This document shows, piece by piece, positions 23,553 through 40,504 of a stretch of 64,000 bases of DNA (within the stretch, counting starts at the first letter, position 1; each line of letters opens with the position of its first letter). The DNA comes from Nitrososphaera sp. (GTDB taxonomy: Archaea; Thermoproteota; Nitrososphaeria; Nitrososphaerales; Nitrososphaeraceae). Under the pieces are notes generated by a model, which worked only from the letters and a program-made list of their open reading frames with translations, was not told the DNA's origin and did not search any database. Made by a program: the position numbers and the translations under genes. The stretch spans positions 62,001 through 126,000 of the forward strand of contig JBDUUL010000010.1 in NCBI GenBank assembly GCA_039938515.1, given 5' to 3'.

Positions 23553-24614
23553 CTAGGCGCCGGCTGTATTTTCTATTCTTCTTAGTTTGTATATTGCAAT
23601 TGAGACCAGCCAAGAAACAGCAAATATCCCAATTAATGCATAGCCTAGGGTCTCAAAGTCGAGATTAGCAAGCCAGGTCCAAAATGTGCCAGCAAGCTTC
23701 AACTGGCCTGATAGAACCTGCAACAGTTCGACGCCGCCTATAACAAGGGCTACGAGCACCGAGATTATCGTAATTGTTAGGTTGTAGTAGACCTTGCGGA
23801 TGGGCTTGACAAATGCCCATCCATACGCTAGTCGCATAGTTACCGAGTCTAAAGTGTCGACGAGCACCATCCCACAAGTGAACATGAATGGAAGAATAAG
23901 GATCATCCACATGGGGATAGTTGATGAGACCCCAATTCCCACACTGATCGCAATAAGTGCGACCTCACTTGCAGTGTCAAATCCAAGACCAAACAGTATT
24001 CCTACTGGGTAGATCTGCCACGGCTTCCTCACGAGTTTGAACAAAGGACCAAAATATCGGACAAGAATCCCACGCTTATTCAGTAGTTCTTCAAGATGAA
24101 CGGCGTCAAGGTTGCCTGCATGTACCTGCTTGTAGACTCGATACACGCCTGCTGCTATCGCCACATTAACTATTCCGATGGCGGCGAGGAACCCACCCGA
24201 AATGCTAGTGCCTATGGTGCTCCCAATGCTCTGAAGGCTTGGGATCTCTCCAGCGATCGCTCTGGTCGACACGATCAAGGCAACAACCAACAAGATGACT
24301 ATAGTCGAATGACCAAGCGAGAACCATGTTCCCACTGTCAGCGGCCGCTTGCCTTCTTGCATCAATTTTCTTGTCGTATTATCGATAGCGGCTATATGGT
24401 CGGCATCAACTCCGTGTCGCAGTCCAAAAACAAAGGCGGCTATGCCAAGCCCAGCAAGTGGCAATGAAAGGTTGCCTATCAAGTATGAGGCCGCAAAGCC
24501 AAGCACAGTTGCTGCAACAATTGGAACGAAGAGCAGAATTATTCTGGATTTTTCGCCAGCTGTAAGTCCAACGAGCGAAGTTCTCCGTTCTCGAGAACCA
24601 GCGTGCGGCGCCAA
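23553..24614 (-). CDS. NiCoT-family nickel/cobalt permease, copy 1 (island)
   Basis: This is a HoxN/NixA-type secondary transporter that brings Ni2+ (or Co2+) through the cell membrane. About eight hydrophobic helices are visible. The family signature in helix II reads RHGVDADHIAAID, with the metal-binding His and Asp residues intact, followed by SLGHSTIV. The start is TTG. It lies directly downstream of nikR on the same strand, so it is the expected NikR target and the nickel source for the nearby urease. A close copy lies at 48807. Val in the signature is the HoxN-like state; the second copy has Phe. Confidence 0.9.
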   Translation of the reverse strand: MAPHAGSRERRTSLVGLTAGEKSRIILLFVPIVAATVLGFAASYLIGNLSLPLAGLGIAAFVFGLRHGVDADHIAAIDNTTRKLMQEGKRPLTVGTWFSLGHSTIVILLVVALIVSTRAIAGEIPSLQSIGSTIGTSISGGFLAAIGIVNVAIAAGVYRVYKQVHAGNLDAVHLEELLNKRGILVRYFGPLFKLVRKPWQIYPVGILFGLGFDTASEVALIAISVGIGVSSTIPMWMILILPFMFTCGMVLVDTLDSVTMRLAYGWAFVKPIRKVYYNLTITIISVLVALVIGGVELLQVLSGQLKLAGTFWTWLANLDFETLGYALIGIFAVSWLVSIAIYKLRRIENTAGA

Positions 24615-24736
24615 TCAGTTCACAGCCTCACTACTGGTCAAGATGTGCAGATTCACGTCGACCTGACATGTCAGCGGTATTACGTATTTGCGGACAAGTA
24701 ATACCCAAGACGACAACCATTCAGACAGGCAATCTA

Positions 24737-24804
24737 TCTATAAAAAGAAATTGATTTTACACGTAAACTACGAGATCGATTCTGCAAATGCATACGTAGT
24801 TTGT
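24737..24804 (-). promoter_or_regulatory. Nickel permease promoter with inverted repeat
   Basis: Read on the minus strand, a TATA box (CTTTTTATAG, about 24739-24748) precedes the permease gene. Upstream of it lies an inverted repeat, GTAAACTACG (24763-24772) and CGTAGTTTGT (24795-24804), separated by 22 bases. A very similar pair, with a 23-base gap, lies before the gene at 36338. Candidate NikR or other metal-regulator site; spacing differs from the E. coli NikR operator. Confidence 0.5.
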
Positions 24805-24831
24805 GAATTGGTTTTTTGCCTGTTGCACTGT

Positions 24832-25320
24832 CTATACCTTTGTGACAAAATTCACCTTTAGGCTCTTTATTCCCCTGTTCTCAGACAGCCGCCTTGCCAG
24901 CTCCTTTATTCTCTTGACTCTGCCTCTTACCATTATTGCCTCAAGGCAATTATCATGGTCAAGATGAAGGTGTGTAGTGGCACCGATTACCTCGCTGAAG
25001 AGGTGTTGAATGTCGGCCATCGCAGAGTCCTGATTGTACGAGTGATTGTCATATAGCAGTGTAATTACACCTGCTCCGTCTAGAGTGTCGTCAGCATTGC
25101 TCCACTCGTAATGGTCAACAAAAGAATGGAGTGCGGTCTGGATTGCTTTGGACCTGTCGCTAAATCCGGCTCTGCTCATGCTTTTGTCAAATTCTAAAAG
25201 CAGCGCAGGCGGAAGCGACATGCTGATTCGTCTTACCCCTTTCCTGTCGTTCGTTCTGCTTTTGCCACTATTCTTATGCTCATGCGAGCCGTTTTTGCCC
25301 ACGGTTATGCTTGGTTGCAA
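24832..25320 (-). CDS. nikR: Nickel-responsive regulator NikR
   Basis: An N-terminal ribbon-helix-helix (RRISMSLPPALLLEFDKSM...SDRSKAIQTAL) is followed by an ACT-like metal-binding domain. All four high-affinity nickel ligands of E. coli NikR have counterparts: a His in DIQHLF, the two His of HLHLDHDN and the Cys of NCLE, with the 11-residue spacing between the first two kept. The first 30 residues are a charged extension. NikR tetramers bind DNA when loaded with nickel and normally repress nickel uptake. It lies between the urease genes and the permease gene. Confidence 0.92.
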   Translation of the reverse strand: MQPSITVGKNGSHEHKNSGKSRTNDRKGVRRISMSLPPALLLEFDKSMSRAGFSDRSKAIQTALHSFVDHYEWSNADDTLDGAGVITLLYDNHSYNQDSAMADIQHLFSEVIGATTHLHLDHDNCLEAIMVRGRVKRIKELARRLSENRGIKSLKVNFVTKV

Positions 25321-25377
25321 CGTAAATGGATTTAACCTTTAACCATTAACCATGCATTTGATTACGATCCCATGAAT

Positions 25378-25391
25378 TTCGGCTGTCGAAC
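25378..25391 (-). repeat. Dispersed 14-base element, copy 1
   Basis: On the minus strand this reads GTTCGACAGCCGAA. It lies between the end of ureC and the start of nikR. Further copies are at 33694, 36132 and 36594, all inside the island. The best copy is a perfect 7+1+7 palindrome. Confidence 0.6.
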
Positions 25392-25396
25392 TTCGC

Positions 25397-27121
25397 TTAG
25401 AACAGATTATACAACCTTGATAGTGAGACCCTGTCTGCAACTCCAACCGTTGCGATTTTGCCATCCACTTTAACCTCGTATGTCTCAGGGTCAATCTCTA
25501 TCTCTGGAGTCAGGTCATTATACAGCAAGTCCTTCTTGCCGATTCTGCGACATCCTTTGACAGGCAACAACTTCTTGGCCAGACCAAGCTTTTTCGCAAT
25601 CCCATTCTTGATGGCAAGCTTGGAAGTAAATGTCACTGATGTCGTGGCACTAGCCCTTCCAAAGGCGCCAAACATTGGCCTATAGTACACCGGCTCCGGT
25701 GTGGGAATGGACGCATTCGGATCGCCCATTAGCGAAAATGCAATCATTCCTCCCTTAATTACCATTTTGGGCTTGAGTCCAAAAAATTGTGGTGTCCATA
25801 CAACAATGTCTGCAATTTTACCGGGCTGGATGGAACCGACGTAGTCTGAAATACCATGCGTAATGGCGGGGTTTATTGTCAGTTTGGCAAGATAGCGCTT
25901 CACCCTGAGATTGTCGTTGTCAACCTTACCTCTTCCCTTCTTCTCCCTGTCAAGCCTGCCCGTTAACTTTTTCATTTTGTCTGCGGTCTGCCATGCCCGG
26001 GCGCTTACCTCGCCGACCCTGCCCATCGCTTGGCTATCCGACGAATACATACTCAGTGCTCCTATGTCATGCAGAACGTCTTCTGCGGCTATTGTTTCCA
26101 TTCTAATTCTTGACTCCGCGAATGCGACATCCTCAGGCACTGATGGGTTAAGGTGGTGACAGACCATCATCATGTCAAGATGCTCATCAAGCGTGTTGAC
26201 AGTAAATGGCCTCGTAGGGTTCGTTGAAGAAGGCAGAATGTTCTGCTCGCCTGCGATTTTCATTATGTCTGGTGCATGACCACCACCAGCTCCTTCGGTA
26301 TGATAAGTGTGAATAGTTCTACCTGCAATCGCTTCTATGGTGTCGTCTACAAACCCGCATTCATTGAGCGTATCACTGTGAATTGCGACCTGCGTGTCAG
26401 TTTTGTCGGCCACTCTGAGCGCTGCATCAATGGTAGCAGGAGTAGTTCCCCAATCCTCGTGCAACTTCAAACCACACGCGCCTGCTGCTATTTGTTCAAC
26501 AAGCGACACCTCAAGAGAGTCATTGCCCTTGCCAAGGAAGCCAAAGTTCATTGGCATCGCGTCCACGGATTCGAGCATCCTTGCAATATTCCAGATGCCC
26601 GATGTGCACGTTGTGGCGTTTGATCCATCAGTGGGACCAAAACCTCCGCCAATCATGGTAGTGGTACCGGCGCAGATCGCCTCGATTACCTGCTGAGGCG
26701 AGATAAAGTGAATGTGCGTATCGATAACTCCGGGCGTGCAGATAGTATGTTCGCCGGAAATCACATCAGTGCCTGAGCCTACTATCATGTCCACGTTGTC
26801 AGAGATGTCGGGGTTTCCAGCCTTACCCACGCCGGCAACGATACCGTTCTTGATGCCGATATCGGCCTTGATTATTCCAAGCAAAGGATCCATTACAATG
26901 GCATTGGTAATAACAAGGTCCAACACCTGGCTCGATTTCTTGCCACTTGATTGGCCCATGCCATCCCTTACGCTTTTTCCGCCGCCAAATACGAGCTCGT
27001 CGCCATAACCAACCAGATCCTTCTCAATTTCTATTAGTAGGTCGGTGTCCGCTAACCGCACGCAATCACCAACAGTCGGCCCGAAAAGGTCAACGTACCG
27101 CTTGCGCGTGATCTCAAGCAC
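25397..27121 (-). CDS. ureC: Urease alpha subunit (catalytic)
   Basis: Urease splits urea into ammonia and carbamate with a di-nickel centre. The 574 residues match the usual length. Nickel ligands are visible in order: THIHF, the carbamylated Lys of GLKLHEDW, His in VAIHSD, His in the GGGHAPD region and the Asp of [10 protein letters not shown]. The mobile flap with MVCHHLNP, which carries the flap Cys and the catalytic His, is intact. The start overlaps the end of ureB by eight bases, so C, B and A form one operon in the order A-B-C. In this organism the ammonia would supply both biomass and ammonia oxidation. Confidence 0.97.
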
Positions 27122-27488
27122 CTTTGTATCCTCTCCTCCTTGCGCGGGATATTGCCGAAGCCTTGTTTGTGGCCAAGGACCCGTTTACAAGGCCGCCAAA
27201 GCCATAGACCCTTCTCTTCCCGGAAAACTCTGTCAGTTCGACTTCCTTTGTCTCACCCGGCTCAAACCTTATTGAAGTGCCGGACGGAATATTGAGCCTG
27301 AAGCCATATGCCTTGACTCGCTGGAAATTCAAAGCCTTGTTGACCTCAAAGAAATGCGTGTGCGAGCCAACCTGAACGGGCCTGTCGCCAGTATTACTTA
27401 CCTGAAGTCTTGTAGTCTTCCGGCCAGGGTTTGCAATTATCGGCTCGTCCGAAATAATATATTCGCCTGGAATCAAGCTCCGATCCAT
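27114..27488 (-). CDS. ureB: Urease beta subunit
   Basis: The small structural subunit of urease, a beta-barrel that packs on UreC. The family pattern is clear: [11 protein letters not shown], then [36 protein letters not shown] and [10 protein letters not shown]. The length of 124 residues is typical, with a short basic tail. It overlaps ureC by eight bases and follows ureA by 37 bases. Confidence 0.96.
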
Positions 27489-27525
27489 TTCCTTTTTTCG
27501 CTATGTTCCAATTACTCACACAACT

Positions 27526-27828
27526 TTACACTATCGGGTCATGCACGGTTACGAGCTTTGTTCCGTCCTCAAAAGTTGCCTCTACCTGCACTGACCTTAT
27601 CATTTCGGGAACTCCTTGAAGAACATCGGTTCGTGAAAGAACTGCTCTGCCTGAGCTCATGAGTTCCGATACGGACCTGCCATCCCTAGCGCCTTCCAGG
27701 ATATGATCCGATATCAGCGCAACAGCCTCAGTGTAATTGAGCTTGAGTCCTCTCTCTTTTCGCCGGAGTGCCACTTGGGCCGCTACAAAAATGTACATCT
27801 TGTCAATTTCTCTGGGAGCGAGCATCAT
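27526..27828 (-). CDS. ureA: Urease gamma subunit
   Basis: The smallest urease subunit, 100 residues, begins with the family start [13 protein letters not shown] and contains [25 protein letters not shown] split over two helices, then [14 protein letters not shown] and the closing HDPI. It is the first gene of the ureABC operon and starts about 30 bases after a TATA box, facing away from ureE. A diverged second gamma-like protein is encoded at 33664-34062. Confidence 0.96.
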
Positions 27829-27888
27829 AGTATAACAATTCGAATTACTAATTCATGTATTTATAATTGATCAAACAGCAAATCTAGC
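27829..27888. promoter_or_regulatory. Divergent ureABC / ureEFGD promoter region
   Basis: Sixty bases separate the two urease operons. A TATA element (ATTTATAATT, about 27858-27868) can serve the ureA side at a distance of about 30 bases from its ATG. Between TATA and ureA lies TTACTAA (27845-27851), the motif shared by five island promoters. No ribosome-binding site is evident before ureA or the GTG of ureE. Confidence 0.6.
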
Positions 27889-28473
27889 GTGCCAAAATTG
27901 CGAGCAGACCCCAAATTGCCTGGAGGTCGCATGTCTCCCAAGCAGAATCCGGCAGTAGTAAATGCAATAGTCGGCAATATCTTCGAGGACAGGTCGCTAC
28001 TGCTGAAACTTCAAAGAATGAAACGCCTAAGGCGCCATGAAGCCCTCAGGCTAACCAGAGAGGAAATGCAAAAACTCAGGCTCAGAAGAAGGACAGCAAG
28101 AGGCACTGAGATTCTTATCGATCTTCTGTCTAGGCTACCTCTCCGCAATGGCGACGTGCTAGAAGAAAGCCGCAATCGATTGATTTCGATCGAGCAGAAG
28201 CCCGAGCTCGTAGTGGGAGTAATGCTCAAAAGAGCGGTGTCGATGCCTGAAACCTTGATACGGATTTCCGGCCTTGTAGGCCATGCCGTCGGAAATAGAC
28301 ACAGGTCAATAGCTATCCGCCACCGGACAATCTACTTTCCAGTTATGAATGAGGCTGACGCGACCGCATTTAGAAAGGTTCTTGCGCCATTTAAAAAACA
28401 AACAAGGGTTCGAATTACAAGAGTTGTGTTGACGGCGGAGGACCTAGGGGGTGGCAACCATTCGCACACCTAA
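27889..28473 (+). CDS. ureE: Urease accessory protein UreE (nickel metallochaperone)
   Basis: UreE delivers nickel to the urease-UreDFG complex. The metal-binding core is visible as GHAVGNRH in the C-terminal domain, the usual site with the conserved His at the dimer interface. The protein ends in GGNHSHT, so the long His-rich tail of bacterial UreE is missing. The N-terminal half is unusually Arg-rich (LQRMKRLRRHEALRL). The start is GTG and the end overlaps ureF by 23 bases. The lack of a His tail is notable because the nearby chaperonin has His-rich parts. Confidence 0.9.
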   Translation: MPKLRADPKLPGGRMSPKQNPAVVNAIVGNIFEDRSLLLKLQRMKRLRRHEALRLTREEMQKLRLRRRTARGTEILIDLLSRLPLRNGDVLEESRNRLISIEQKPELVVGVMLKRAVSMPETLIRISGLVGHAVGNRHRSIAIRHRTIYFPVMNEADATAFRKVLAPFKKQTRVRITRVVLTAEDLGGGNHSHT

Positions 28474-29182
28474 CCTTGACAGTCACGAACTGGCAATGAT
28501 GCAGTTGTCAGATTCGTTCTTTCCGTCAGGGATGTTTGGCATGTCTGGTGGTCTTGAGTCCATGGCTAAGGCGAATTGGATTAAGGATAAGAAAGCGGTC
28601 AGTGAGTTCTTACATCAGCAAATCCTCTTTCAAATTGTGCCGTGCGACTGCATGGCGTTTTCAATCGCAATAGATGCCGCAAGAAAAGGTGATCTTCGAT
28701 TAGCCGTCAAAGTTGACCATGCATACCTCGCAATGAAACTTGTGTCAGAAGTCCGGTTGGCATCGGTGCGCTCAGGCAGGCAGCTGCTTAAAAGTGTCCT
28801 GCAGGTTTCAAGAATAAAGTTTGCATCCCAGTTTAATGAAAAGATAGACACTGGTAAGGCAGAGGGCTCTTATCCAGTCTGTATGGCGATTGCCGCGACT
28901 GCATTTGACATCCCAAAGACAAGCGCCTTGCGCATAGTACTCTATACCTATTGCACATCCATTACCGCCGCAGCTGTGCGCCTTGGACTCTTGGACCACA
29001 TTGAAGCCCAGACTGTCCTGAAGCAAATGCATCAACTGATTAATTCAGAAGCCATCCGCGCATCAGATCCAAAATTTAGCAAGAACGCCGACCCATTATC
29101 GATTCTGTGGCAGCTAAGCCCGCTTGTAGACATTGCTCAAATGCTGCACGAACGCGACGAACTACGAATGTTTATTACTTGA
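28451..29182 (+). CDS. ureF: Urease accessory protein UreF
   Basis: UreF is an all-helical scaffold that, with UreD and UreG, opens apo-urease for activation. Family marks: MMQLSDSFFPSGMFGMSGGLES near the N-terminus (QLSDSxFP...G.S.GLE), a central CDCMAFSIA helix and a closing region with SPLVDIAQMLHE. The 243 residues are normal in length. It overlaps ureE, and only 25 bases separate its stop from the chosen start of ureG. Confidence 0.92.
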   Translation: MATIRTPNLDSHELAMMQLSDSFFPSGMFGMSGGLESMAKANWIKDKKAVSEFLHQQILFQIVPCDCMAFSIAIDAARKGDLRLAVKVDHAYLAMKLVSEVRLASVRSGRQLLKSVLQVSRIKFASQFNEKIDTGKAEGSYPVCMAIAATAFDIPKTSALRIVLYTYCTSITAAAVRLGLLDHIEAQTVLKQMHQLINSEAIRASDPKFSKNADPLSILWQLSPLVDIAQMLHERDELRMFIT

Positions 29183-29207
29183 TCGAATAAAGTGTCTGCG
29201 AAGCCAA

Positions 29208-29951
29208 ATGAAGAGGGCTGGAGTTGCTCCAAAGGCGCGTATTCCACGCGTTGGCGTAGGTGGACCGGTGGGATGCGGAAAAACTCGGCTTATTGAGGTA
29301 ATTGTACCGCTTTTGAGCAGTCAAGGGTATCGCTGCTGCATTATTTCAAATGACGTGGTGTCAAAGGAGGATGCGGTGCGAATGAGGCGAATTCTAGCCA
29401 CAGAGGCTCACATCATGCCTGAAGAGTTGATAATCGGAATCGCTACCGGCGGCTGCCCGCACACCGCTATTCGCGAGGATCCGTCAGTAAACTTGGCCGT
29501 AATTGATGAAATAGAACGAAAGGACCCTTTGCTTGACTTGATCTTAATTGAGAGCGGTGGTGACAACACTATGACTACATTCAGTCCTGCCCTCGCAGAC
29601 TATTTTATTTACATTGTAGACGTCGCGGGCGGCGACAAGTATCCGCGTAAAAGGGGACTTGGAATTGAAAGTTGCGACCTTCTCGTCGTAAACAAGGTGG
29701 ACCTTGCACCTTTCGTTGGCGCGGATATCGAGGCAATGATTCGTGACGCTAGGATTGTGAGGAATGGGAAACCGTTTGAGTTTATTGATTGCAAATCAGG
29801 AGCAGGAGTAGAGAAAGTCGTCAGGCACATCGTTCGTGATGTTCTGTTTGACGCGCCAGCAAAAAAGAGTAATGACGGAGCTTTAAGTCATACTGCTGGC
29901 TCTAAAAAAGCGTCACAAAGACAAGGCATGCATGCAAAAAAACCTCGCTAG
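29208..29951 (+). CDS. ureG: Urease accessory GTPase UreG
   Basis: UreG binds GTP and nickel and drives nickel insertion. I use ATG 29208 because the protein then starts just before the first strand (RIPRVGVGGPVGCGKT), whereas the longer frame overlaps ureF with unlike residues. The P-loop GPVGCGKT, the metal motif CPH (GGCPHTAIRED), the switch region IESGGDN and the base-recognition NKVD are all present. A polar tail of about 35 residues, rich in Lys, Ser and His, is appended. Confidence 0.95.
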   Translation: MKRAGVAPKARIPRVGVGGPVGCGKTRLIEVIVPLLSSQGYRCCIISNDVVSKEDAVRMRRILATEAHIMPEELIIGIATGGCPHTAIREDPSVNLAVIDEIERKDPLLDLILIESGGDNTMTTFSPALADYFIYIVDVAGGDKYPRKRGLGIESCDLLVVNKVDLAPFVGADIEAMIRDARIVRNGKPFEFIDCKSGAGVEKVVRHIVRDVLFDAPAKKSNDGALSHTAGSKKASQRQGMHAKKPR

Positions 29952-29962
29952 GCAGACCTGCT

Positions 29963-30889
29963 TTGAATCACAACACATCCAGATCGGACACCGATTTTAC
30001 AGCCGAAGCCGGCTTTCTGAAGCTGAGCCTGGCTCCAAGCTCGCAATTGCCTTATTCAAATCGACCAAAGACCACAATTAAATGCGCTGAATCAAAAGCG
30101 CCGTTGCTTATTCAAAGAGCGTTATATCCTGAACCTTCATACCCGTTTCTTGCACACATTTACATGATGTCTTCAGCAGGCGGAATCCTGCAGGGTGATC
30201 GGCTGAACATCTCAATAGAGTCCGAACCTCACTCATACGCCTCTGTAACGACTCAAGCGTCTACCAAAATCTATAGAATGGATCGAGGCTATGCCACCCA
30301 ACAAATCTCTCTACGCATAAATAAAGACGCTTACCTTGAATTCCTGCCGCATTCGAACATTCCCTATAAAGGCTCAAAATTTCACCAAACCACATCTATA
30401 CAAGCTGACACTGGCTCGGTGCTAGTCTATTCTGAAACAATGTCTGCTGGCAGGATAGCTTTTGGCGAGAGATTTGACTTCAATTCGCTTGAGCTACAGA
30501 TAACGGCACGGCATTCTTCAGGCAAGCTGTTGTTTCATGATAGTTCGAAGTTCAGATCCATGCGGAATGCTGGGCAAAGTTTCAATCATGCTGCACAGCT
30601 TGACAAGCTATTTGGAAAAAGGGACATTCTGTCTACCGTCTACATTGTGAGCCCTTCATCCGACCAAACTCTCACTGGGTTAGACGAAGATTTCTTCCAG
30701 CTCCTGCAAACCGAGCGTGAATTTATTGCTAAATGTGGTTCTTCGGCAAAGAGCGCATTTATTTCAGGAATTTCTTCATTACCCAATAACTCAGGCCTTG
30801 TTATTAGGATGCTCTCGAATTCGATTGATCAAATCGAAAGCGTCATTAGCAGAGTTTCACGCATATGCCGCAAACAATTTCTTTCCTGA
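29963..30889 (+). CDS. ureD: Urease accessory protein UreD (UreH)
   Basis: UreD is the beta-sheet-rich scaffold that contacts apo-urease and passes nickel from UreG. Motifs SSAGGILQGDRL, VTTQASTKIYRM and LEFLPHSNIPYKGSKF are those of the family. The 308 residues are slightly longer than usual. The start is TTG, 11 bases after ureG, and it ends the ureEFGD operon. Codon third positions look AT-rich compared with genes left of the island. Confidence 0.92.
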   Translation: MNHNTSRSDTDFTAEAGFLKLSLAPSSQLPYSNRPKTTIKCAESKAPLLIQRALYPEPSYPFLAHIYMMSSAGGILQGDRLNISIESEPHSYASVTTQASTKIYRMDRGYATQQISLRINKDAYLEFLPHSNIPYKGSKFHQTTSIQADTGSVLVYSETMSAGRIAFGERFDFNSLELQITARHSSGKLLFHDSSKFRSMRNAGQSFNHAAQLDKLFGKRDILSTVYIVSPSSDQTLTGLDEDFFQLLQTEREFIAKCGSSAKSAFISGISSLPNNSGLVIRMLSNSIDQIESVISRVSRICRKQFLS

Positions 30890-31364: not shown

Positions 31365-31619
31365 CTAGAGTGGAGCCATTGTGTCTATAAGACGCGCGTT
31401 TGTAACCAGACCGTCCTTTTCCTGTATTATGAGGTCCACTGTGTACTGCATACCTCCTAGCATGAAGGTGGTCTGGACGTCCCAGGAATCGCGGTTCAGT
31501 TCACTCGGAAACGGAAACAGCACTCTAATCTTAAAGTCTCTGATGTCTGAGCCGTAAAGGGATTGGATGGCGCTCCGCGAGGCCTTTTCGATCTCCACGT
31601 TAGATTTGACTGGGTTCAT
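31365..31619 (-). CDS. Small hypothetical protein under a urea-type promoter
   Basis: From ATG 31619 the protein has 84 residues with a helix (EIEKASRSAIQSLYG) and three or four strands (FKIRVLFPF, VQTTFMLGGMQYTVDLIIQEKDG). The end is NARLIDTMAPL. The family is unknown. It starts 15 bases after a TTACTAA motif next to a TATA element, the same arrangement as ureA, the ureohydrolase, the ParB-like gene and the SSS permease, so it is probably part of the same response. Confidence 0.6.
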   Translation of the reverse strand: MNPVKSNVEIEKASRSAIQSLYGSDIRDFKIRVLFPFPSELNRDSWDVQTTFMLGGMQYTVDLIIQEKDGLVTNARLIDTMAPL

Positions 31620-31633
31620 AACCAATTATATAG

Positions 31634-31808: not shown

Positions 31809-33656
31809 TTGGTTTTGATTCAAAAGAATGCAATCCAACGAATACTTGGAGAAGACGTCAAACGTTCAAGCGGTCAAGACGCTAGACGCTCCAATCTTCT
31901 AGCAGCCCGACTCATTGCGGAACTCATGAAGAACTCCCTAGGCCCGCGCGGACTTGAAAAAATGTTTGTCGATATAATGGGCGAGGTGACCGTGACAAAA
32001 GACGGCGCTACGCTGCTTCGCAAAATTGATGTTGAACATCCTGCGGCAAAAGTCCTCATAGAAGCTTCAAACTCTGTTGATAATGAAGTTGGCGACGGCA
32101 CAAAAGCTGTCGTTGTGGTCATTGGAGCTCTACTGGAAAAGGCCGAAGAAATGCTCGACAAAGGTATCTCTCCTGCCATGATTATTGACGGCTACCAGAG
32201 TGCCCTAGAGCTGGCTCTTGTGGAACTGGAGAATCTGGCAGAAAAACATGCCGGTCCCGATAAGGACACGATGGGCCGCCTGGTGCAAACTAGTCTTGAC
32301 TCAAAATCGCTGGGGCCTGCGGTAAAGAACGTTACTGACATGATCGTTGACGCTGCACTTTCAGTTGCTGATTCCAGTCGCAAGAGCATTGATGTCGACA
32401 ACATCAAGATTGAGCAAAAACTCGGAGACATGTCGATGACACAGCTCATTAAGGGAATGGTCGTTGACAAAACTATAGACAGTTCATCAATGCCAAAGAG
32501 CATTGAAAAAGCCAGGATAATGCTCATTGATGACGATCTTGAAGGCAGAACTACAAGGACTGGATCGCAAATTAACATCAATTCGCCGAAGCTAATGATG
32601 TCTTTCAAAAAAGAGGAAACTGAAGAAATTCGATCCAAAGTCAAACATATCATAGAGTCCGGGGCAAATGTTGTTTTCTCAAGGAAGGGAATAAACACAC
32701 TTGCGCAGCACTTACTTGCCAGAGAGGGAATCATTTCTGTTAGAAGGGTAAAAGAGAATGATCTTCTCTGGCTTGCCAGGGCGACGGGGGCATCTATCGC
32801 AGCAAGGCTAGACCATGAGCATGAGGTTCACTATGGTTCAGACGGTCATGACCATGATCACCACAGTCACGAGCACAAACATGCTCACACTCATTCGGAA
32901 AGATACTCCACGCGCCACGACGATTTCCATCCTCACTATCATCACGGGGATATCGATATTAAACTTGGATTTGCTGAACGGGTTTCTGAGCGAGTAATAG
33001 GTGACGATAGAATGGTGTTCGTCGAAAGCTGCAGGAACCCAAGGGCTGTTACGATTCTGTTGCGAGCGGGTTCAAAGCGCACTCTCGATGAGTTCCAGCG
33101 CTCAACAATTGACGGCATATCTGTTCTGAGAGACTATTTTACCAAACCTGCAATCATCTCAGGAGGGGGATCAGCCGAAGCTGCCATTGCGAAAAGGCTC
33201 AGGAATACTGCAAACTCGATTCCTTCCCGGGAGCAAATCGTCCTTTCAATGTTCGCAGACGCGCTTGAGGAAATTCCTCTCACCCTGGCTAGAAATGCCG
33301 GCATGGACGTCATTAACACGCTTGCTACGCTACGACACGAGCATCGCGACGATAATAGGGGCCACACCGGTAGGGGCAAAACATATGGAGTAGACGTATT
33401 CGGAAGAAAAGTCTCACAAATGTATCCTGCAGTGGTAGAACCCGTTCTTGTCAAGGAACAGGTGCTCAAGACAGCCACCGAGGTCGCAAACCTGTTACTC
33501 CGAGTAGATGATGTCCTAATGGCGAAGCCTGCAATGAACACGCACACACATGCAAATGGGACTACACACTCTCATGGAGGCGGAGATAAGGCGCATCAAC
33601 ATGACTATTTTGACCGACTAGGAAAGATGCAGCGGCCAAGCCACCATTATTACTAG
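31809..33656 (+). CDS. Histidine-rich thermosome paralogue (group II chaperonin)
   Basis: The whole group II chaperonin fold is present: GPRG, KDGATLL, GDGT, the hydrolytic Asp of STIDGI, SGGGSAE and NAGMDV. It differs from the canonical subunit at 43572 in two additions. A loop in the apical domain, residues about 336-379, has 17 His in 44 residues (HDHDHHSHEHKH and neighbours). The C-terminus, residues about 577-613, adds eight more His. The usual GDGTT is GDGTK. Placed between urease accessory genes and a ureohydrolase, it may bind nickel or help fold nickel enzymes; this is inference. The TTG start follows a TATA-like CATAAATAC. Confidence 0.92.
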   Translation: MVLIQKNAIQRILGEDVKRSSGQDARRSNLLAARLIAELMKNSLGPRGLEKMFVDIMGEVTVTKDGATLLRKIDVEHPAAKVLIEASNSVDNEVGDGTKAVVVVIGALLEKAEEMLDKGISPAMIIDGYQSALELALVELENLAEKHAGPDKDTMGRLVQTSLDSKSLGPAVKNVTDMIVDAALSVADSSRKSIDVDNIKIEQKLGDMSMTQLIKGMVVDKTIDSSSMPKSIEKARIMLIDDDLEGRTTRTGSQININSPKLMMSFKKEETEEIRSKVKHIIESGANVVFSRKGINTLAQHLLAREGIISVRRVKENDLLWLARATGASIAARLDHEHEVHYGSDGHDHDHHSHEHKHAHTHSERYSTRHDDFHPHYHHGDIDIKLGFAERVSERVIGDDRMVFVESCRNPRAVTILLRAGSKRTLDEFQRSTIDGISVLRDYFTKPAIISGGGSAEAAIAKRLRNTANSIPSREQIVLSMFADALEEIPLTLARNAGMDVINTLATLRHEHRDDNRGHTGRGKTYGVDVFGRKVSQMYPAVVEPVLVKEQVLKTATEVANLLLRVDDVLMAKPAMNTHTHANGTTHSHGGGDKAHQHDYFDRLGKMQRPSHHYY

Positions 33657-33663
33657 TTGTTGA

Positions 33664-34062
33664 TTAAACCAGGGGTTGAAAGTCCGACGATGCGTTCGAC
33701 AGCCGAATGGGCGAGTCTATCTTCAACCGCACAGGAGCCTCGCCATCGACAGCAGCCTCGATCAACAGCTGTTGTAGTGACTCTGGAACACCTATCAGAA
33801 CAGATTCGTGAGATAGGATCACTCTTGCCTGTCTTTCAATTTCAGCGGGCGCTATGCTCGCCCGCAGTCCATTAACAGCATACGAACAATACAACAATAT
33901 CGACTCATTGACATTGAGCTTCAACCCGCGATCGAGTTTTTCCTTAACCGCGATGGCGCTCCTAAAAAAGATCTCCTCATCAGATCCGTTTTCAAAACTC
34001 ATTGTCCTCAAAAGAGGAGGGACGTCAGGCTCTCCCTTTATGATCGCTCTGACGTGAATCAT
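33664..34062 (-). CDS. Orphan urease gamma-like (UreA-like) protein
   Basis: Residues about 35-125 align with UreA of this window: EKLDRGLKLNVNESILL matches [16 protein letters not shown], then ARVILSHESVLIGVPE matches [14 protein letters not shown], and the end has LKIDSPI against VHDPI. A 30-residue N-terminal extension is added. The standard UreA start (LxPREIDK) is missing. No second ureB or ureC accompanies it. It lies 10 bases upstream of the ureohydrolase-type gene's end-side on the same strand and faces the thermosome paralogue. It could modify urease or serve the ureohydrolase. The homology is clear by eye, the role unknown. Confidence 0.75.
   Translation of the reverse strand: MIHVRAIIKGEPDVPPLLRTMSFENGSDEEIFFRSAIAVKEKLDRGLKLNVNESILLYCSYAVNGLRASIAPAEIERQARVILSHESVLIGVPESLQQLLIEAAVDGEAPVRLKIDSPIRLSNASSDFQPLV
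33694..33707 (+). repeat. Dispersed 14-base element, copy 2
   Basis: GTTCGACAGCCGAA, here inside the 3' end of the UreA-like gene and about 40 bases after the stop of the thermosome paralogue. Confidence 0.55.
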
Positions 34063-34071
34063 ATCTAGAAC

Positions 34072-35217
34072 TCACTTTGACTTCTTGGCATATTCCAGTG
34101 GAGCCCTCTTAGGGACCTTCGCCTTCGGCCCGTTGCCAAAGTCATATGTGTGACCTTGGCCACGGTAAAGCTTTGGACGCACAGGCTTGCCTTCACTCTT
34201 GCCCTTCTTGGTCAAAGATAGTCCTGCCATCAGCTCAACGATGAGCCTGTTTGCAAGACCAGAAGTGATGCCCCCGTTGTATGAATTTCCATCACTTACG
34301 TCATAATTAGGCGCCACTTCTACCAAGTCAAACGCAAACCTGTCAGGATCAAATGAGGTTGAGAGTAGTCTCATAAGCCTCATGCCTTCTCTTGAGGTCA
34401 GACCGTTTGGCTCCGGCTCGCCAGTGCCCGGTGCATATGCCGGATCGAAGGTGTCAATGTCCCAGCTGATGTAGACTGCATCGACATTGTCATTTGCCCT
34501 GTCAGCAGCTTCTTTTGCTATCCTGTCAATTCCAAGTTCCTCTACATCTAGCATGGTAAACCATTGAAAGTCCTGGTCAGCCATCCATTTGTACAAATCC
34601 GGACCGGGCCAATAGCCACGCGGGCCGATGAGTGTGTAGTTCTTGCCCTTCAGGCATCCAAGTTCCATGATCCTTCTTATGTGCGCGCCGTGGTCGTACT
34701 TGAAGCCGCAGAGTCCCTGGGGCGCGCAATCTGCGTGTGTGTCAATGTGAATCATTCCAATGTTTTTGTACTTTTTCGAAAATGCTCGAACATTTGCAAA
34801 TGTAATCGAGTGGTCGCCTCCAAGCATAACAGGGATGCCGTCGATGTCGAGGACTTCCTTCACTTTGTCGGTCATCCTTCTGTGCGATTCTACAACGTCT
34901 CCAGGAGATACTACGACATCGCCATAATCTACAGTTTTGAAGACTCCAAAGGGATCGACTCCGGTCTCAATGTTGAAGTGTTCGTAAGGCGGAGAGGGCA
35001 CTGTCGATGCGGCTCTAATGGCGCGCGGACCGTATCTGGCGCCTGGCCTGATTGTGGTCCCAAAGTCAAACGGTTCGCCGATAATTGCGATGTCTGGCTT
35101 TACCTTCTTTAGTTCATCTCTGCTTCTTACCCAAGGCAATTTCAGAAAGGTGGGGATTCCCACAAAAATTGGTTCGTCATTGCCTTTGTACGAGTCTCCG
35201 TAAAATTCCATTCCCAT
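34072..35217 (-). CDS. Arginase/agmatinase-family ureohydrolase, possibly guanidine hydrolase
   Basis: The di-metal motifs of the family are complete: GGDHS, DTHAD (in place of the usual DAHxD) and DIDTFDPAYAPGTGEPEP. At 381 residues it is longer than agmatinase (about 300), with about 40 extra residues in front (FVGIPTFLKLPWVRS) and a basic tail. The family releases urea from agmatine, arginine, guanidinobutyrate or, in the Ni-dependent GdmH of Synechocystis, from guanidine itself. The longer N-terminus and the nickel/urease surroundings favour a GdmH-like role, but agmatinase remains possible. Promoter: TATA, two TTAGTAA copies, then the ATG. It ends 10 bases before the UreA-like start. Confidence 0.85.
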   Translation of the reverse strand: MGMEFYGDSYKGNDEPIFVGIPTFLKLPWVRSRDELKKVKPDIAIIGEPFDFGTTIRPGARYGPRAIRAASTVPSPPYEHFNIETGVDPFGVFKTVDYGDVVVSPGDVVESHRRMTDKVKEVLDIDGIPVMLGGDHSITFANVRAFSKKYKNIGMIHIDTHADCAPQGLCGFKYDHGAHIRRIMELGCLKGKNYTLIGPRGYWPGPDLYKWMADQDFQWFTMLDVEELGIDRIAKEAADRANDNVDAVYISWDIDTFDPAYAPGTGEPEPNGLTSREGMRLMRLLSTSFDPDRFAFDLVEVAPNYDVSDGNSYNGGITSGLANRLIVELMAGLSLTKKGKSEGKPVRPKLYRGQGHTYDFGNGPKAKVPKRAPLEYAKKSK

Positions 35218-35230
35218 AGTGGCTCTACTA

Positions 35231-35260
35231 TTAGTAATTACTTAGTAAGCGTTTTTAAAT
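35231..35260 (-). promoter_or_regulatory. Ureohydrolase promoter with two TTACTAA copies
   Basis: On the minus strand: TATA (ATTTAAAAAC, 35251-35260), TTACTAA at 35242-35248 and a second TTACTAA at 35231-35237, then the ATG at 35217. The doubled motif, 11 bases apart (one helical turn), is the strongest version of this element in the island. Confidence 0.55.
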
Positions 35261-35301
35261 ATTGCTAAGTAAATTACGTCGAGCCCGTGAAAAGCAGGTT
35301 T

Positions 35302-36054
35302 TCAGCGCTTTAACTGCTTGGCAAGCAAAGTCCTGACGTACTGCGTCACTTCTAGGCCATTTTCATTTGCATATTCGTTCAGCCTATCCCACAAATCTTT
35401 GTCAACTCTGTTTCGGGGGTCAAACACTAACCTGATTGTGAGCAATCCTTTTGGCGCTCCACGCTTGACGCCAGCTTTCGACATTTCTTCTTGAAGAGTT
35501 CCCGAGCGTGCTGCAGAAACAAGCCTTTCTTGAACAGACTTGGGTTTGCGGGCTATCTTTATAGCCTCAAAAGCAGTGATTTGGCCTTTTTCTATGTTTT
35601 CTTGAAGCGCTTCGGGCAAATTAAGGATGCTTAGCCATTCGCTAACGGTGCTCTTGGGAAGGCCATACTTTAGCGCAACCTTAGTTATGCCCCCGTCAGT
35701 GGAATCAACTAGCCTCTTCACCATCCTTCCTTTCTCGATCGGCGACAAGTCCTTGCGAACAAGATTCTCAAATAACGACGCAGCCTCTGCTTCGGCTCCT
35801 TCGAGCTCTGTTATTACAGCAGGAATCTCGCGCTCGCCCTTCGCGCTGAGAGCAAAGTAGCGACGTCTGCCAATGAGCAGCTTATACCGTTTGCTTTCAT
35901 CGTCAAACCTGACGACGACTGGCTGAAGCAAGTCAAATTTTGCGAGATGTTCTTTCATTAGGTGATCTTTATCGTCCTCTCCAAAGGAGTGATCCTTACG
36001 AACATTCTCATTTGCAATGTCTATCAGGTTGATCGGAATCGTCTTTATCTTCAT
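35302..36054 (-). CDS. ParB-like DNA-binding protein
   Basis: I take ATG 36054 (MKIKTIPINLIDIANENVR). Residues about 1-95 form the ParB/Srx-like domain with the nucleotide-binding box LIGRRRYFAL and ENLVRKDLSPIEKG. Residues about 105-150 form the helix-turn-helix (ITKVALKYGLPKSTVSEWLSIL). A C-terminal domain (LTIRLVFDPRNRVDKDLW...QYVRTLLAKQL) resembles a ribbon-helix-helix. ParB proteins bind parS-like DNA; some, such as KorB, act as regulators. No ParA lies beside it (the ParA-like gene is at 60 kb). Its own promoter carries TTACTAA, and four palindromic elements lie around it. Confidence 0.85.
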   Translation of the reverse strand: MKIKTIPINLIDIANENVRKDHSFGEDDKDHLMKEHLAKFDLLQPVVVRFDDESKRYKLLIGRRRYFALSAKGEREIPAVITELEGAEAEAASLFENLVRKDLSPIEKGRMVKRLVDSTDGGITKVALKYGLPKSTVSEWLSILNLPEALQENIEKGQITAFEAIKIARKPKSVQERLVSAARSGTLQEEMSKAGVKRGAPKGLLTIRLVFDPRNRVDKDLWDRLNEYANENGLEVTQYVRTLLAKQLKR

Positions 36055-36063
36055 AGCAACCAA

Positions 36064-36337: not shown

Positions 36338-36592
36338 ATGAGGGCTGGCTTGAATGAAGAGTATTTGGTCAATCAATCAATGGTCAAGACAGCGTTTCTC
36401 AGCTACTACATAAGCATGTATAATTCAGTTAGCAGAGAGCTAGAGTTGGCGGATGCGCCTGTCACCGTCGACGAAATCTATGAGTTCATTCAGGACATGA
36501 AGCACGAGGTAGGAAAGGACGTCCCGGAGATTCAAAAGGAAGACATAAGCCTCTGTTTCAAAGTCCTACAGGCTGGCGGAATCTGCCGGTAA
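36338..36592 (+). CDS. Small helical hypothetical protein
   Basis: The protein has 84 residues, mostly helical and acidic (VDEIYEFIQDMKHEVGKDVPEIQ). Near the N-terminus FLSYYISMYNSVSREL forms an amphipathic helix. Two Cys are near the C-terminus (LCFKVLQAGGICR). No family recognised. It is followed at once by a terminator-like palindrome and preceded by an inverted repeat shared with the nickel permease promoter, so it is probably a metal- or urea-regulated single gene. Confidence 0.6.
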   Translation: MRAGLNEEYLVNQSMVKTAFLSYYISMYNSVSRELELADAPVTVDEIYEFIQDMKHEVGKDVPEIQKEDISLCFKVLQAGGICR

Positions 36593-36614
36593 AGTTCGAC
36601 AGTCGAACTTTTTT
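36591..36614 (+). terminator. Palindrome plus T run (dispersed element, copy 4)
   Basis: AAAGTTCGAC-A-GTCGAACTTT is a perfect 10-base stem with a one-base centre, followed by T residues, immediately after the stop codon at 36592. It contains the perfect form of the dispersed GTTCGACAGYCGAAC element (36594-36608), so it may be a terminator, a protein-binding site, or both. Confidence 0.55.
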
Positions 36615-36685
36615 GGCGGAAGAGCCCGCCTTCGTTAACCCAGAGGAGGCAAAAGTTTTATATATATTTAATATTATAATGAAGT

Positions 36686-36811
36686 GTGGATATTTCGGGA
36701 GTCTTGGCAACGTTTGCCGTCATTCTCGCAGCAAGCGGATTCTTCCTCTTCATGGGTACAGTGGGTCTAAAGAGCGACAAGAAAGAAGACGAGATGCACA
36801 AGGCGGAGTAG
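36686..36811 (+). CDS. Single-helix membrane microprotein
   Basis: A 41-residue protein from GTG 36686 (MDISGVLATF) to TAG 36811. Residues about 5-27 are hydrophobic (LATFAVILAASGFFLFMG) and the C-terminus is charged (KSDKKEDEMHKAE). A strong TATA run (TTTATATATA, about 36657-36666) lies about 25 bases before the GTG, so the mRNA should be leaderless. This frame fits the promoter better than the longer overlapping frame of the TPR gene. Confidence 0.6.
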   Translation: MDISGVLATFAVILAASGFFLFMGTVGLKSDKKEDEMHKAE

Positions 36812-36870
36812 CTCTTTTTGATCATACCCACATGCGAAGGCGCGACCATCAGGGAAGGTTTGATTTAGAC

Positions 36871-37386
36871 ATGGTTCTAGGATGGCTCCGCGGCAAAGGC
36901 GCCAAGCCGTCGAAAGAACCGGTTGTTCGGAAGGTGGATAGGAAAACTGCGTCTGACGAGTGGGTAAAACATGGCGAGGATCTGGCTAACTCAAATAGGC
37001 CTGAGGAAGCTATCCAGGCTTTTGACAAGGCCATAGAAATTCTTCCGCAGAACGCGTATGCATGGGGCGACAAGGCGCTCATGCTCGATAAACTCGGCCG
37101 CACTGACGAGGCGTTGATCGCGTTTGCAAGGTCAACAGAGATCGATTCAAGCAGCGCTATTACGTGGAATAACAAGGGTTTGACGCTTTTGAAAGCCGGC
37201 AAGTTTGCTCAAGCGGTTGAATCCTTTGACAAGGCAATCGAGTGCAATGGAAAGTATGCAAAAGCATGGTACAACAAGGGAAGGGCACTTACAATGTTAA
37301 ACAAAGTCAGCGATGCGCAGCGATGCTTTGATGTTGCTCGAAAAATGGATCCGTTGCTGTTTGCAAAATTGAAAAAGATGCACTAG
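36871..37386 (+). CDS. TPR-repeat protein
   Basis: From ATG 36871 (MVLGWLRGKG) the protein has 171 residues with three to four tetratricopeptide repeats, for example AIQAFDKAIEILPQNAYAWGDKA, split by the usual 34-residue period, then AVESFDKAIECNGKYAKAWYNKG. TPR arrays bind other proteins. The frame upstream of this start runs through the membrane microprotein gene and is not protein-like. Partner unknown. Confidence 0.8.
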   Translation: MVLGWLRGKGAKPSKEPVVRKVDRKTASDEWVKHGEDLANSNRPEEAIQAFDKAIEILPQNAYAWGDKALMLDKLGRTDEALIAFARSTEIDSSSAITWNNKGLTLLKAGKFAQAVESFDKAIECNGKYAKAWYNKGRALTMLNKVSDAQRCFDVARKMDPLLFAKLKKMH

Positions 37387-37687: not shown

Positions 37688-39265
37688 ATGGCTGACGTGC
37701 CTATTATTTACCCAATTACCGTCATGGCGTTCGTGGCCGCTACCGCGGCCATTGGCGTTCTTGCGGTCAAATTTGTCAAGAAAAGCAGCAAGCGATACAT
37801 AGTTGCTGGCAAGAGCCTTCCACTGTTCTTCATCGGAACTATGTTAGTTTCAGAGGCTGTCGACGGTAACGCCTCTCTTGGCAACGTCTCGCTTACATTT
37901 TCAGGTGGGTTTTGGGCAGGCGCGGTAGTCCCATTAGGACTAGCCATCTGCTTGGTGCTTACCGGAGCCTTCTTTGGCAAACGATTTAATCGAATGAACA
38001 TGATCACTTTAGCGGACTTTTATTTCCGCCGGTATGGCAACCTCACAGAGGTTATGGCTGGAACTCTGATGTCGATAAGCTTCATTGTTCTTGTAGCGGG
38101 GAACCTTGCTGCAAGCGGCTACATCATTTCGGTTGTAATGAGTATTCCGCTAATCTTTGCCATGCTAATTGCAACTGCTGTCGTTCTTCTCTACACATAT
38201 TTCGGCGGTCTGTTCTCTTGCGCATATACCGACATATTCCACATCTACCTAGCGGTTGTTGGATTCTGGGGAGGCTTCTTGTTCCTGATAAGCCCGTGGT
38301 CGCCAATACAAGGAGGGCTTGAAACTATTGTCTCAAATGTTCCCGCCAACTTTATGGACCTGTCTGGCCTCTACGATGCTGGAAACGGCGCACTTGTGAA
38401 CTGGGCATCTATAATATCGCTTGGACTTGGAGACATTGTCGCCTTAGACTTTATGGAAAGGATTTTCGCAGCAGATGGTGGCAGAACTGCGCAGAAAAGC
38501 AGCTATTTTGCCGCCGGCTTGACGTTGCTCATATTGATTCCTACAACAATGATCGGGATAATTGGACATACACTTGAACCAAACATCCAAGATGCATTTA
38601 CACTCTATCCGATAATGGCCATAAACCATATGCCATCAATCCTTGGAATATTGATGCTGGTAAGTACAGTTAGCTGTGGCATGTCAACTGCTAACGGGGG
38701 CACACTAGCGATAGCTAGCGTACTGTCAAGAAACATGCTACAGCGAAATATCATAACTCGCTTCCTTCACAGACCAAAGTTGAGCGATCGCCAACTACTG
38801 ATCGCCACGAGGCTCTTGGTAATACCAATGTTCTTTACAGCTTTTGCTCTTGGTTACCTGATTCCCAGGCCTGGGATTTATCTAATCTTGGCATTTGATA
38901 TTGTCCTTGCGGGCTGCCTTGTACCGCTAGTTCTTGGAACATTCTGGAAAAAGTCCACTGCATCAGGCGCCGTTGCATCTATCGCAGTTGGTTCAACTCT
39001 TCGAATGATCCTGTACTTCTTGATAAGCACTGCACCATCTGACAGTCCATACTATGCATACGGCGGCCTCGACACAATGATTCCGCCAATTGTCTCGCTG
39101 GCTGTCTTTGTCGGAGTGAGTCTTGCAACGCAAAAGAAAACTCCTCCGAGACACGACGTGATCTACCTTATTCCAAATGATGACGACGTGGTCAGTGGTG
39201 CGGACGTGGATCAATGGGTCAACCCGATAGACGTGCGGCAAATAGCCGGAGCCAAGCGAACATGA
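37688..39265 (+). CDS. SSS-family sodium:solute symporter, probable urea permease (DUR3-like)
   Basis: The protein has 525 residues and about 13 hydrophobic helices, typical of the sodium:solute symporter family. The N-terminal helices contain VAGKSLPLFFIGTMLVSEAVDGNASLGN, in line with DUR3-type urea/polyamine symporters. The position next to the urease island genes and the shared TTACTAA promoter make urea the likely substrate, though substrate cannot be read from sequence alone. Eukaryotic DUR3 proteins are longer (about 650-700 residues). It has a hydrophilic tail of about 35 residues. Confidence 0.8.
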   Translation: MADVPIIYPITVMAFVAATAAIGVLAVKFVKKSSKRYIVAGKSLPLFFIGTMLVSEAVDGNASLGNVSLTFSGGFWAGAVVPLGLAICLVLTGAFFGKRFNRMNMITLADFYFRRYGNLTEVMAGTLMSISFIVLVAGNLAASGYIISVVMSIPLIFAMLIATAVVLLYTYFGGLFSCAYTDIFHIYLAVVGFWGGFLFLISPWSPIQGGLETIVSNVPANFMDLSGLYDAGNGALVNWASIISLGLGDIVALDFMERIFAADGGRTAQKSSYFAAGLTLLILIPTTMIGIIGHTLEPNIQDAFTLYPIMAINHMPSILGILMLVSTVSCGMSTANGGTLAIASVLSRNMLQRNIITRFLHRPKLSDRQLLIATRLLVIPMFFTAFALGYLIPRPGIYLILAFDIVLAGCLVPLVLGTFWKKSTASGAVASIAVGSTLRMILYFLISTAPSDSPYYAYGGLDTMIPPIVSLAVFVGVSLATQKKTPPRHDVIYLIPNDDDVVSGADVDQWVNPIDVRQIAGAKRT

Positions 39266-39982: not shown

Positions 39983-40504
39983 GTGCCGAGTCAAGGGTAC
40001 GCAACTATAGGTCTAAAACCAGCAATCCTGACCAGGCTCGAGGAAGAGACTGACAGGTTTTACCCCGGCATGTTTCTTCCCAGCGCTCTCATAATTATGA
40101 TGAACGAAGTAAAGCGGGGTTACTACTCCGTTGAAATGCAACCAATAAAGGCTGATTTTTCTGGACAATATACTTCGCTTACAATTAGGTCCGATGTACG
40201 GAAATGGCTTGAAGAGAACTATGAGTCCCTTAAGTCCGACTATGACAGAAGGTACAAAGTAAACAGCTTTACAAAATTTGCGGGCATTTTCATGCTCAAT
40301 ATTTTTGAGTCAAAGGCAATCGCACAAAACAACATAGTAAGGCTCAAGGAGGCAGACTTTCGCTGGCTGGTAAGTGAATATGAAAAAAGAAAGAATGAGT
40401 ACAAGATGAAATACGGTGTAACGAGCTTTGAACAATTTGCCGATCTCTTCCTAAAGGAGATTTTTGACAGGCTTGGAATCGCCAAAAAAGCCCTAACCTT
40501 TTAG
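39983..40504 (+). CDS. Protein with repeated small helical domains, possibly DNA-binding
   Basis: The N-terminus (YATIGLKPAILTRLEEETDRFYP) resembles a ribbon-helix-helix strand and first helix. Two further units follow: SLTIRSDVRKWLEENYESLK with NSFTKFAGIFMLNIF, and ADFRWLVSEYEKRKNEYK with TSFEQFADLFLKEIF. They share a period of about 60 residues. The start is GTG. I know no function; a regulator is a guess from the first unit. Confidence 0.6.
   Translation: MPSQGYATIGLKPAILTRLEEETDRFYPGMFLPSALIIMMNEVKRGYYSVEMQPIKADFSGQYTSLTIRSDVRKWLEENYESLKSDYDRRYKVNSFTKFAGIFMLNIFESKAIAQNNIVRLKEADFRWLVSEYEKRKNEYKMKYGVTSFEQFADLFLKEIFDRLGIAKKALTF

Follow-up and report, generated by a model that had tools for sequence, protein, structure and literature searches.

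An archaeal ureohydrolase co-inherited with a urease-gamma paralogue and a histidine-tailed thermosome

Several characterized members of the arginase family resemble UHL, the archaeal ureohydrolase analysed here. GdmH (Synechocystis Sll1077 and the Nitrospira inopinata enzyme; PDB 7esr/7oi1, 9fek) shares with UHL its family, three Thr, His and Glu positions, nickel-related neighbours and, for UHL by prediction, the supply of urea to urease; in comammox bacteria, GdmH feeds ammonia oxidation. Two members of the family, GdmH and metformin hydrolase, use nickel (PMC12186494; PDB titles), and the latter, MfmAB (PDB 8snf), requires a partner subunit, which is a second arginase-family protein, whereas the neighbour of UHL is a protein like the urease gamma subunit UreA. 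The agmatinase SpeB (TIGR01230; PDB 3pzl, 7lol) has the fold and metal ligands of UHL, and GbuA and GpuA (PDB 3nio, 3nip) share its N-terminal GI.TF..LP region.

UHL differs from GdmH in belonging to a separate clade (~35% identity), in having Glu in place of a key Trp, and in its companions: where GdmH has an ABC/APC importer and nickel accessory proteins, UHL has an SSS symporter, the UreA-like protein and a His-tailed thermosome. A guanidine riboswitch, which is not essential for activity, was not found with Rfam models in the 64,000-nucleotide stretch of DNA analysed (the window) or in six related loci. GbuA and GpuA also form a separate clade, have Thr at the position of Glu267 in UHL, and do not have its insert after YD; we know of no co-occurrence of either with urease.

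Family placement of the ureohydrolase

The host of the window was judged from its closest genomes to be an ammonia-oxidizing archaeon (AOA), and UHL was placed as follows.

34072–35217, minus strand: UHL, arginase-family ureohydrolase, 381 aa (PF00491, 266 bits; tree support 100/99)

An intact open reading frame fills this interval exactly, and its product matched the Arginase family well above the cut-off of 22 bits (E=4.5e-79), which makes it a member of the superfamily. The di-metal ligand motifs GGDH, DTHAD and DID..DP were complete and invariant in 17 orthologues, as an earlier reading of the sequence alone had proposed, and the DTHAD motif singled out in that reading proved to be D[TC]HAD across the UHL clade. 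The extra length that the sequence-only reading assigned to the N-terminus lies mainly elsewhere: when residues 41–310 were aligned with residues 33–284 of the 306-residue E. coli agmatinase, UHL exceeded that enzyme by only 8 residues on the N-terminal side of the core and by 49 on the C-terminal side (71 versus 22). Further marks of the clade were GTGEPEP, PPYEHFNIETG.DPF (varied at one or two positions in some marine members), SYNGG(I/V)TSG after YD, and a conserved 7-residue insert after YDVSD. GbuA, GpuA, PAH and SpeB did not share this insert, Glu267 or the PPYEHFNIETGVDPF segment.

Orthologues with 79–95% identity were present in 85 of 400 sampled genomes of the class, and haloarchaeal orthologues were 53–56% identical. 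In a tree with characterized members, AOA and haloarchaeal UHL formed one clade (100/99); the GdmH pair (100/100), GbuA/GpuA (96/95), and PAH and SpeB, whose own positions were poorly resolved, all fell outside it, and GdmH was a weakly supported neighbour (81/81). UHL also scored below the cut-offs of the curated agmatinase models TIGR01230 (154.3 versus 174.3 bits) and PRK02190 (196.9 versus 302 bits). In the family tree that the earlier reading had suggested, UHL did not group with agmatinase and did not fall within GdmH, a membership also spoken against by the replacement of Trp by Glu267 in every UHL. On these comparisons of sequence, UHL is a separate clade of AOA and haloarchaea, which is neither an agmatinase by curated models nor inside GdmH.

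The host genome has three arginase-family genes. One of the two besides UHL encodes a short SpeB-like protein (285 aa, on L003) whose best match is a Thermoplasma agmatinase, and shorter arginase-family relatives were present in most genomes, whereas UHL was patchy. These results agree with the proposal in the earlier reading that UHL is distinct from a housekeeping agmatinase. The third family member (L002, 1252–2349) adjoins a methyltransferase-like gene and a gene for an MFS-like transporter.

The best PDB sequence match of UHL was GbuA (177 bits). Of the four residues singled out for the N. inopinata guanidinase (PMC11410670), UHL keeps three, with T55, H176 and E300 at the positions of Thr105, His222 and Glu344, and has Glu267 at the position of Trp313. 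The predicted structure of UHL, made from a shallow alignment, was poor (pLDDT 62.8), and for this reason we did not use its pocket shape and took its fold matches, the Nitrospira guanidinase being best with the nickel metformin hydrolase close behind, as weak support only.

A block of genes inherited with UHL

UHL was repeatedly surrounded by the same genes, namely those for an SSS symporter, a thermosome paralogue, the proteins o86 and o173, a TPR protein and often urease. In the window, the neighbours of UHL are:

31365–31625, minus strand: o86, 86-aa conserved protein with no Pfam or NCBIfam match
31809–33656, plus strand: His-rich thermosome paralogue (PF00118)
33664–34062, minus strand: UreA-like, urease gamma subunit paralogue, 132 aa (PF00547), next gene after UHL
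35302–36063, minus strand: ParB-like DNA-binding protein, directly upstream of UHL (PF02195, PF17762)
36338–36592, plus strand: orf84, recurring neighbour
36613–37386, plus strand: TPR protein, recurring neighbour
37688–39265, plus strand: SSS sodium-solute symporter of the UHL-linked subfamily, not the urease-linked DUR3 type (PF00474)
39983–40504, plus strand: o173, 173-aa conserved protein with no NCBIfam match

Profiles built from UHL-linked loci were used to search 80 AOA genomes, comprising 40 with UHL, 20 with urease and no UHL, and 20 with neither. The UHL-linked SSS and o86 were each present in 38 of the 40 UHL-positive genomes, as was the His-tailed thermosome (at least 750 bits); o173 was present in 33 and UreA-like in 35, counting a divergent copy in genome G112. 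None of the 40 UHL-negative genomes had any of these genes in intact form, and their thermosomes, which were canonical, scored at most 618 bits. Eight genera include genomes with and without UHL, and in each the SSS, His-tailed thermosome, o86, o173 and UreA-like genes all followed UHL. The UHL block is thus a set of at least six gene families that are inherited together and switch as a unit. Chance linkage was rejected on the strength of this co-occurrence and of the link between UHL and UreC described below. This co-inherited block, with its urease-gamma partner and His-tailed thermosome, is a stronger finding than the unusual ureohydrolase tied to urease that the earlier reader rightly recognized; UHL may still work as GdmH does. 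In the open-access literature searched, we found no earlier description of the UreA-like partner or of the His-tailed thermosome.

The UreA-like gene, which was overlooked in the sequence-only reading, starts 9 nt downstream of UHL in the window. Its product belongs to the urease gamma family (PF00547, E=1.7e-9, 38.4 versus 23.9 bits) but scored below the equivalog cut-offs for functional UreA (38.4 versus 123 bits and 36.3 versus 82.3 bits), and it was 34% identical over 76 aa to the true UreA. An AF2 model (pLDDT 92) best matched the urease gamma subunit 2kau_A (E=6.7e-7) in the PDB; UreA-like has the same fold as UreA (PF00547) but has extra N-terminal strands and is encoded with UHL rather than with UreB and UreC. 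The spacing between UHL and UreA-like was –4 to +9 nt in every locus read, with a 4- or 1-nt overlap in most relatives, the commonest being the 4-nt overlap of translational coupling. UreA-like followed UHL in all 28 close loci with room for it and was present in all 20 of the 20-kb loci, which came from Nitrososphaeraceae, Nitrosopumilaceae and one further family. It evolves fast, being 24–40% identical to the window copy among AOA (UHL, 79–95%), and its absence from 5 of the 40 UHL-positive genomes shows that it cannot be strictly essential. The UHL-negative genome G108 retains part of a UreA-like gene next to a NicO gene (L142, 6570–7479), as expected from a decayed UHL operon. In two loci where UreA-like is missing (L147, 6381–7070; L146, 7549–8304), a NicO-like permease gene directly follows UHL, and the permease of L147 has a very His-rich loop.

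Ordinary thermosomes have been described with GGM-rich tails (PMC6821194). The window paralogue instead has an internal His-rich insert (~32811–32957) and a C-terminal tail with THTHANGTTHSH..HQHD..HHYY (~33537–33656), and a tail of the form THTHxDGTxHSH...HDHF...HHYY was present in all 16 locus members. Among the 80 AOA genomes, this tail tracked UHL and not urease. Genome G112 does not have the His-tailed thermosome, and its own UHL bears a His-rich C-terminus, HSHKHGHHAHNH. Such a UHL, with a His-rich C-terminal extension in a genome without the His-tailed thermosome, is encoded at L053 (9521–10837). In several genomes, UHL or UreA-like has a NicO-type permease gene as its immediate neighbour. 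On these indirect hints UHL is probably nickel-loaded, a reading to be taken with the facts that its ligands do not tell the metal and that the nickel genes may serve urease alone.

Urease and a shared promoter element

The sequence-only reading had listed a nickel permease, NikR and urease as neighbours of UHL, and all were present at 23553–30889:

23553–24614, minus strand: NiCoT nickel permease (PF03824)
24832–25320, minus strand: NikR-like regulator (PF08753)
25397–27121, minus strand: UreC
27114–27488, minus strand: UreB
27526–27828, minus strand: UreA
27889–30889, plus strand: UreE, UreF, UreG and UreD accessory genes, named from sequence and order

Among the 400 class genomes, UreC was present in 75 of the 85 with UHL (p=3e-31), and the UHL-positive genomes without UreC were mostly incomplete or fragmented assemblies. 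Nitrosopumilaceae genomes of at least 95% completeness numbered 25 with UHL and urease, none with UHL alone, 12 with urease alone and 67 with neither (p=2.5e-15). Because the genomes are related, these Fisher p-values overstate independence, and the pattern across eight genera is the safer statement. When UHL and UreC were on the same contig, they were no more than 21 kb apart in 40 of 44 cases. UHL presupposes urease, in that near-complete genomes almost never have UHL without it; urease does not need UHL, since genomes with urease and no UHL exist. This co-occurrence and linkage strongly favour a route that ends in urea and ammonia, as the earlier reading had anticipated.

Two minor features of this region were also recorded. 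An Rfam match to 5_ureB_sRNA above threshold (26680–26972, plus strand) is antisense to ureC in the window, with similar matches in L034, L041 and L049; these matches are probably conserved ureC coding sequence. The NiCoT gene at 23553–24614 is very similar to another at 48807–49868, with similar upstream regions, indicating a recent duplication.

The promoter motif noted in the earlier reading was real.

35230–35280, minus strand: UHL promoter, with the CGTAATTTAC palindrome, TATA-like ATATTTAAAAA, and then TTACTAA repeats (from sequence)

In 17 of 20 loci the palindrome, CGTA-N3-TAC, immediately preceded the TATA-like box of UHL (p=7e-21), and it also lay upstream of ParB-like (9 of 9), orf84 (9 of 9) and SSS (6 of 20), against a background of 10 of 412 ORFs. 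TTACTAA was rejected as the shared motif, being weaker (UHL, 6 of 20; SSS, 9 of 20; background, 5 of 235). The ParB-like gene adjoins UHL in several Nitrososphaeraceae loci, and we regard its product as a candidate regulator of UHL.

Proposed pathway and candidate substrates

We consider it probable that an archaeal module with UHL as its central catalyst converts a guanidino compound to urea and feeds ammonia oxidation. The UHL-specific SSS symporter would import a small guanidino compound with sodium; UHL, as a di-metal ureohydrolase probably loaded with nickel, would hydrolyse it to urea and an amine or ammonia; and urease would split the urea into two ammonia molecules that enter ammonia oxidation. 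Folding UHL, supplying it with nickel, or both would probably fall to the His-tailed thermosome. The UreA-like protein, co-translated with UHL, probably either joins UHL as a partner subunit or serves as an adaptor taken over from urease. The family, clade and metal ligands of UHL, its operon coupling, all-or-none co-inheritance, dependence on urease and shared promoter element were all computed; because the block is inherited whole and near-complete genomes almost never have UHL without urease, AOA probably turn a guanidino compound into ammonia for energy. A more elaborate version, which we offer as speculation, is that a UreA paralogue was captured to form a UHL–urease complex or as a urease-derived UHL subunit, with the His-tailed thermosome loading nickel, so that guanidino compounds are channelled to ammonia in soil and marine AOA and partly in haloarchaea.

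Free guanidine is the leading single candidate for the substrate, a choice we make tentatively. That UHL is a functional guanidinase, performing the GdmH reaction (guanidine to urea and ammonia) in a convergent or relaxed pocket with Glu267 for Trp, is possible but doubtful. GdmH is its nearest characterized clade, albeit weakly, and its best fold match; the guanidinase Thr, His and Glu residues are kept; the module showed no enzyme that would handle a carbon-containing product; the His-rich thermosome tail, NicO-type neighbours and G112 UHL tail hint at nickel; and comammox bacteria live on guanidine by means of guanidinase and urease (PMC11410670). However, every UHL has Glu in place of the Trp on which guanidine specificity depends, the UHL clade is separate, the riboswitch was not found in the window or six related loci, and published screens did not find guanidinase genes in AOA (PMC11410670, PMC12625717), a result that we ascribe to their having sought GdmH-like sequences. 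Instead, UHL might be a dissimilatory agmatinase or act on another substituted guanidine (guanidinobutyrate, -propionate or -acetate, methylguanidine or taurocyamine) with excretion of the product, a possible reading to which we give clearly less than an even chance. The sequence match to GbuA and the annotation of an SSS-linked gene as SpeB in print (PMC11131427) are consistent with this reading; the scores below agmatinase cut-offs, the distinct SpeB-like gene of the genome, and the absence of Glu267, the PPYEHFNIETGVDPF segment and the 7-residue insert from GbuA, GpuA, PAH and SpeB argue against it.

Two further readings give UHL a more ancillary role. Family resemblance and the 2–3 speB copies ascribed to AOA (PMC10753782) would suit a housekeeping agmatinase for polyamine synthesis, but UHL is patchy (85 of 400 genomes) and tied to urease and a private transporter, and most of the same genomes have shorter arginase-family relatives; its distribution and the separate SpeB lead us to reject this reading as very unlikely. 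It is unlikely that the SSS imports urea and that UHL and all the rest of the block merely assist urea use, for example by clearing inhibitory guanidino compounds. AOA SSS genes have been treated as low-affinity urea transporters (PMC10579303, PMC11131427), and the block is linked to urease. Yet the UHL-linked SSS did not group with the urease-linked AOA SSS (DUR3-type urea symporter) and was missing from each of the 20 genomes tested that have urease but no UHL; one of these (G061) has two different SSS genes near urease with ~21–24% identity to it. This absence, together with the closeness of the UHL-linked SSS to the SSS beside haloarchaeal UHL (36–38% identity), points to the substrate of UHL rather than urea as its predicted cargo.

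The accepted view is that AOA live on ammonia and partly on urea. The block, which is present in about one-fifth of the 400 sampled genomes and more than half of the 139 with urease, predicts an additional source of nitrogen and energy for soil and marine nitrifiers and suggests what a symporter generally interpreted as a urea transporter may do. It may also account for lineages that have urease but no known urea transporter (NS-delta, PMC10579303), and its His-tailed thermosome suggests a nickel-related role for a chaperonin that can be tested.

In haloarchaea, SSS, an AbrB/PhoU-type regulator and UHL occurred together in Haloglomus, Halonotius, Halalkalicoccus and Haloarcula, and the Haloarcula locus also had a TCP-1 chaperonin paralogue; the Natronorubrum locus had a full urease cluster instead. 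The Haloarcula island (L134, 2881–10361) includes formamidase and APC permease genes as well. Within AOA, loci L041–L043 (Nitrosopumilaceae genera g16/g20) were 93–94% identical to the window in UHL and ~79–83% in SSS, and other Nitrosopumilaceae were ~80% and ~50% identical, respectively; the higher identity of g16/g20 makes transfer of the whole block between families likely.
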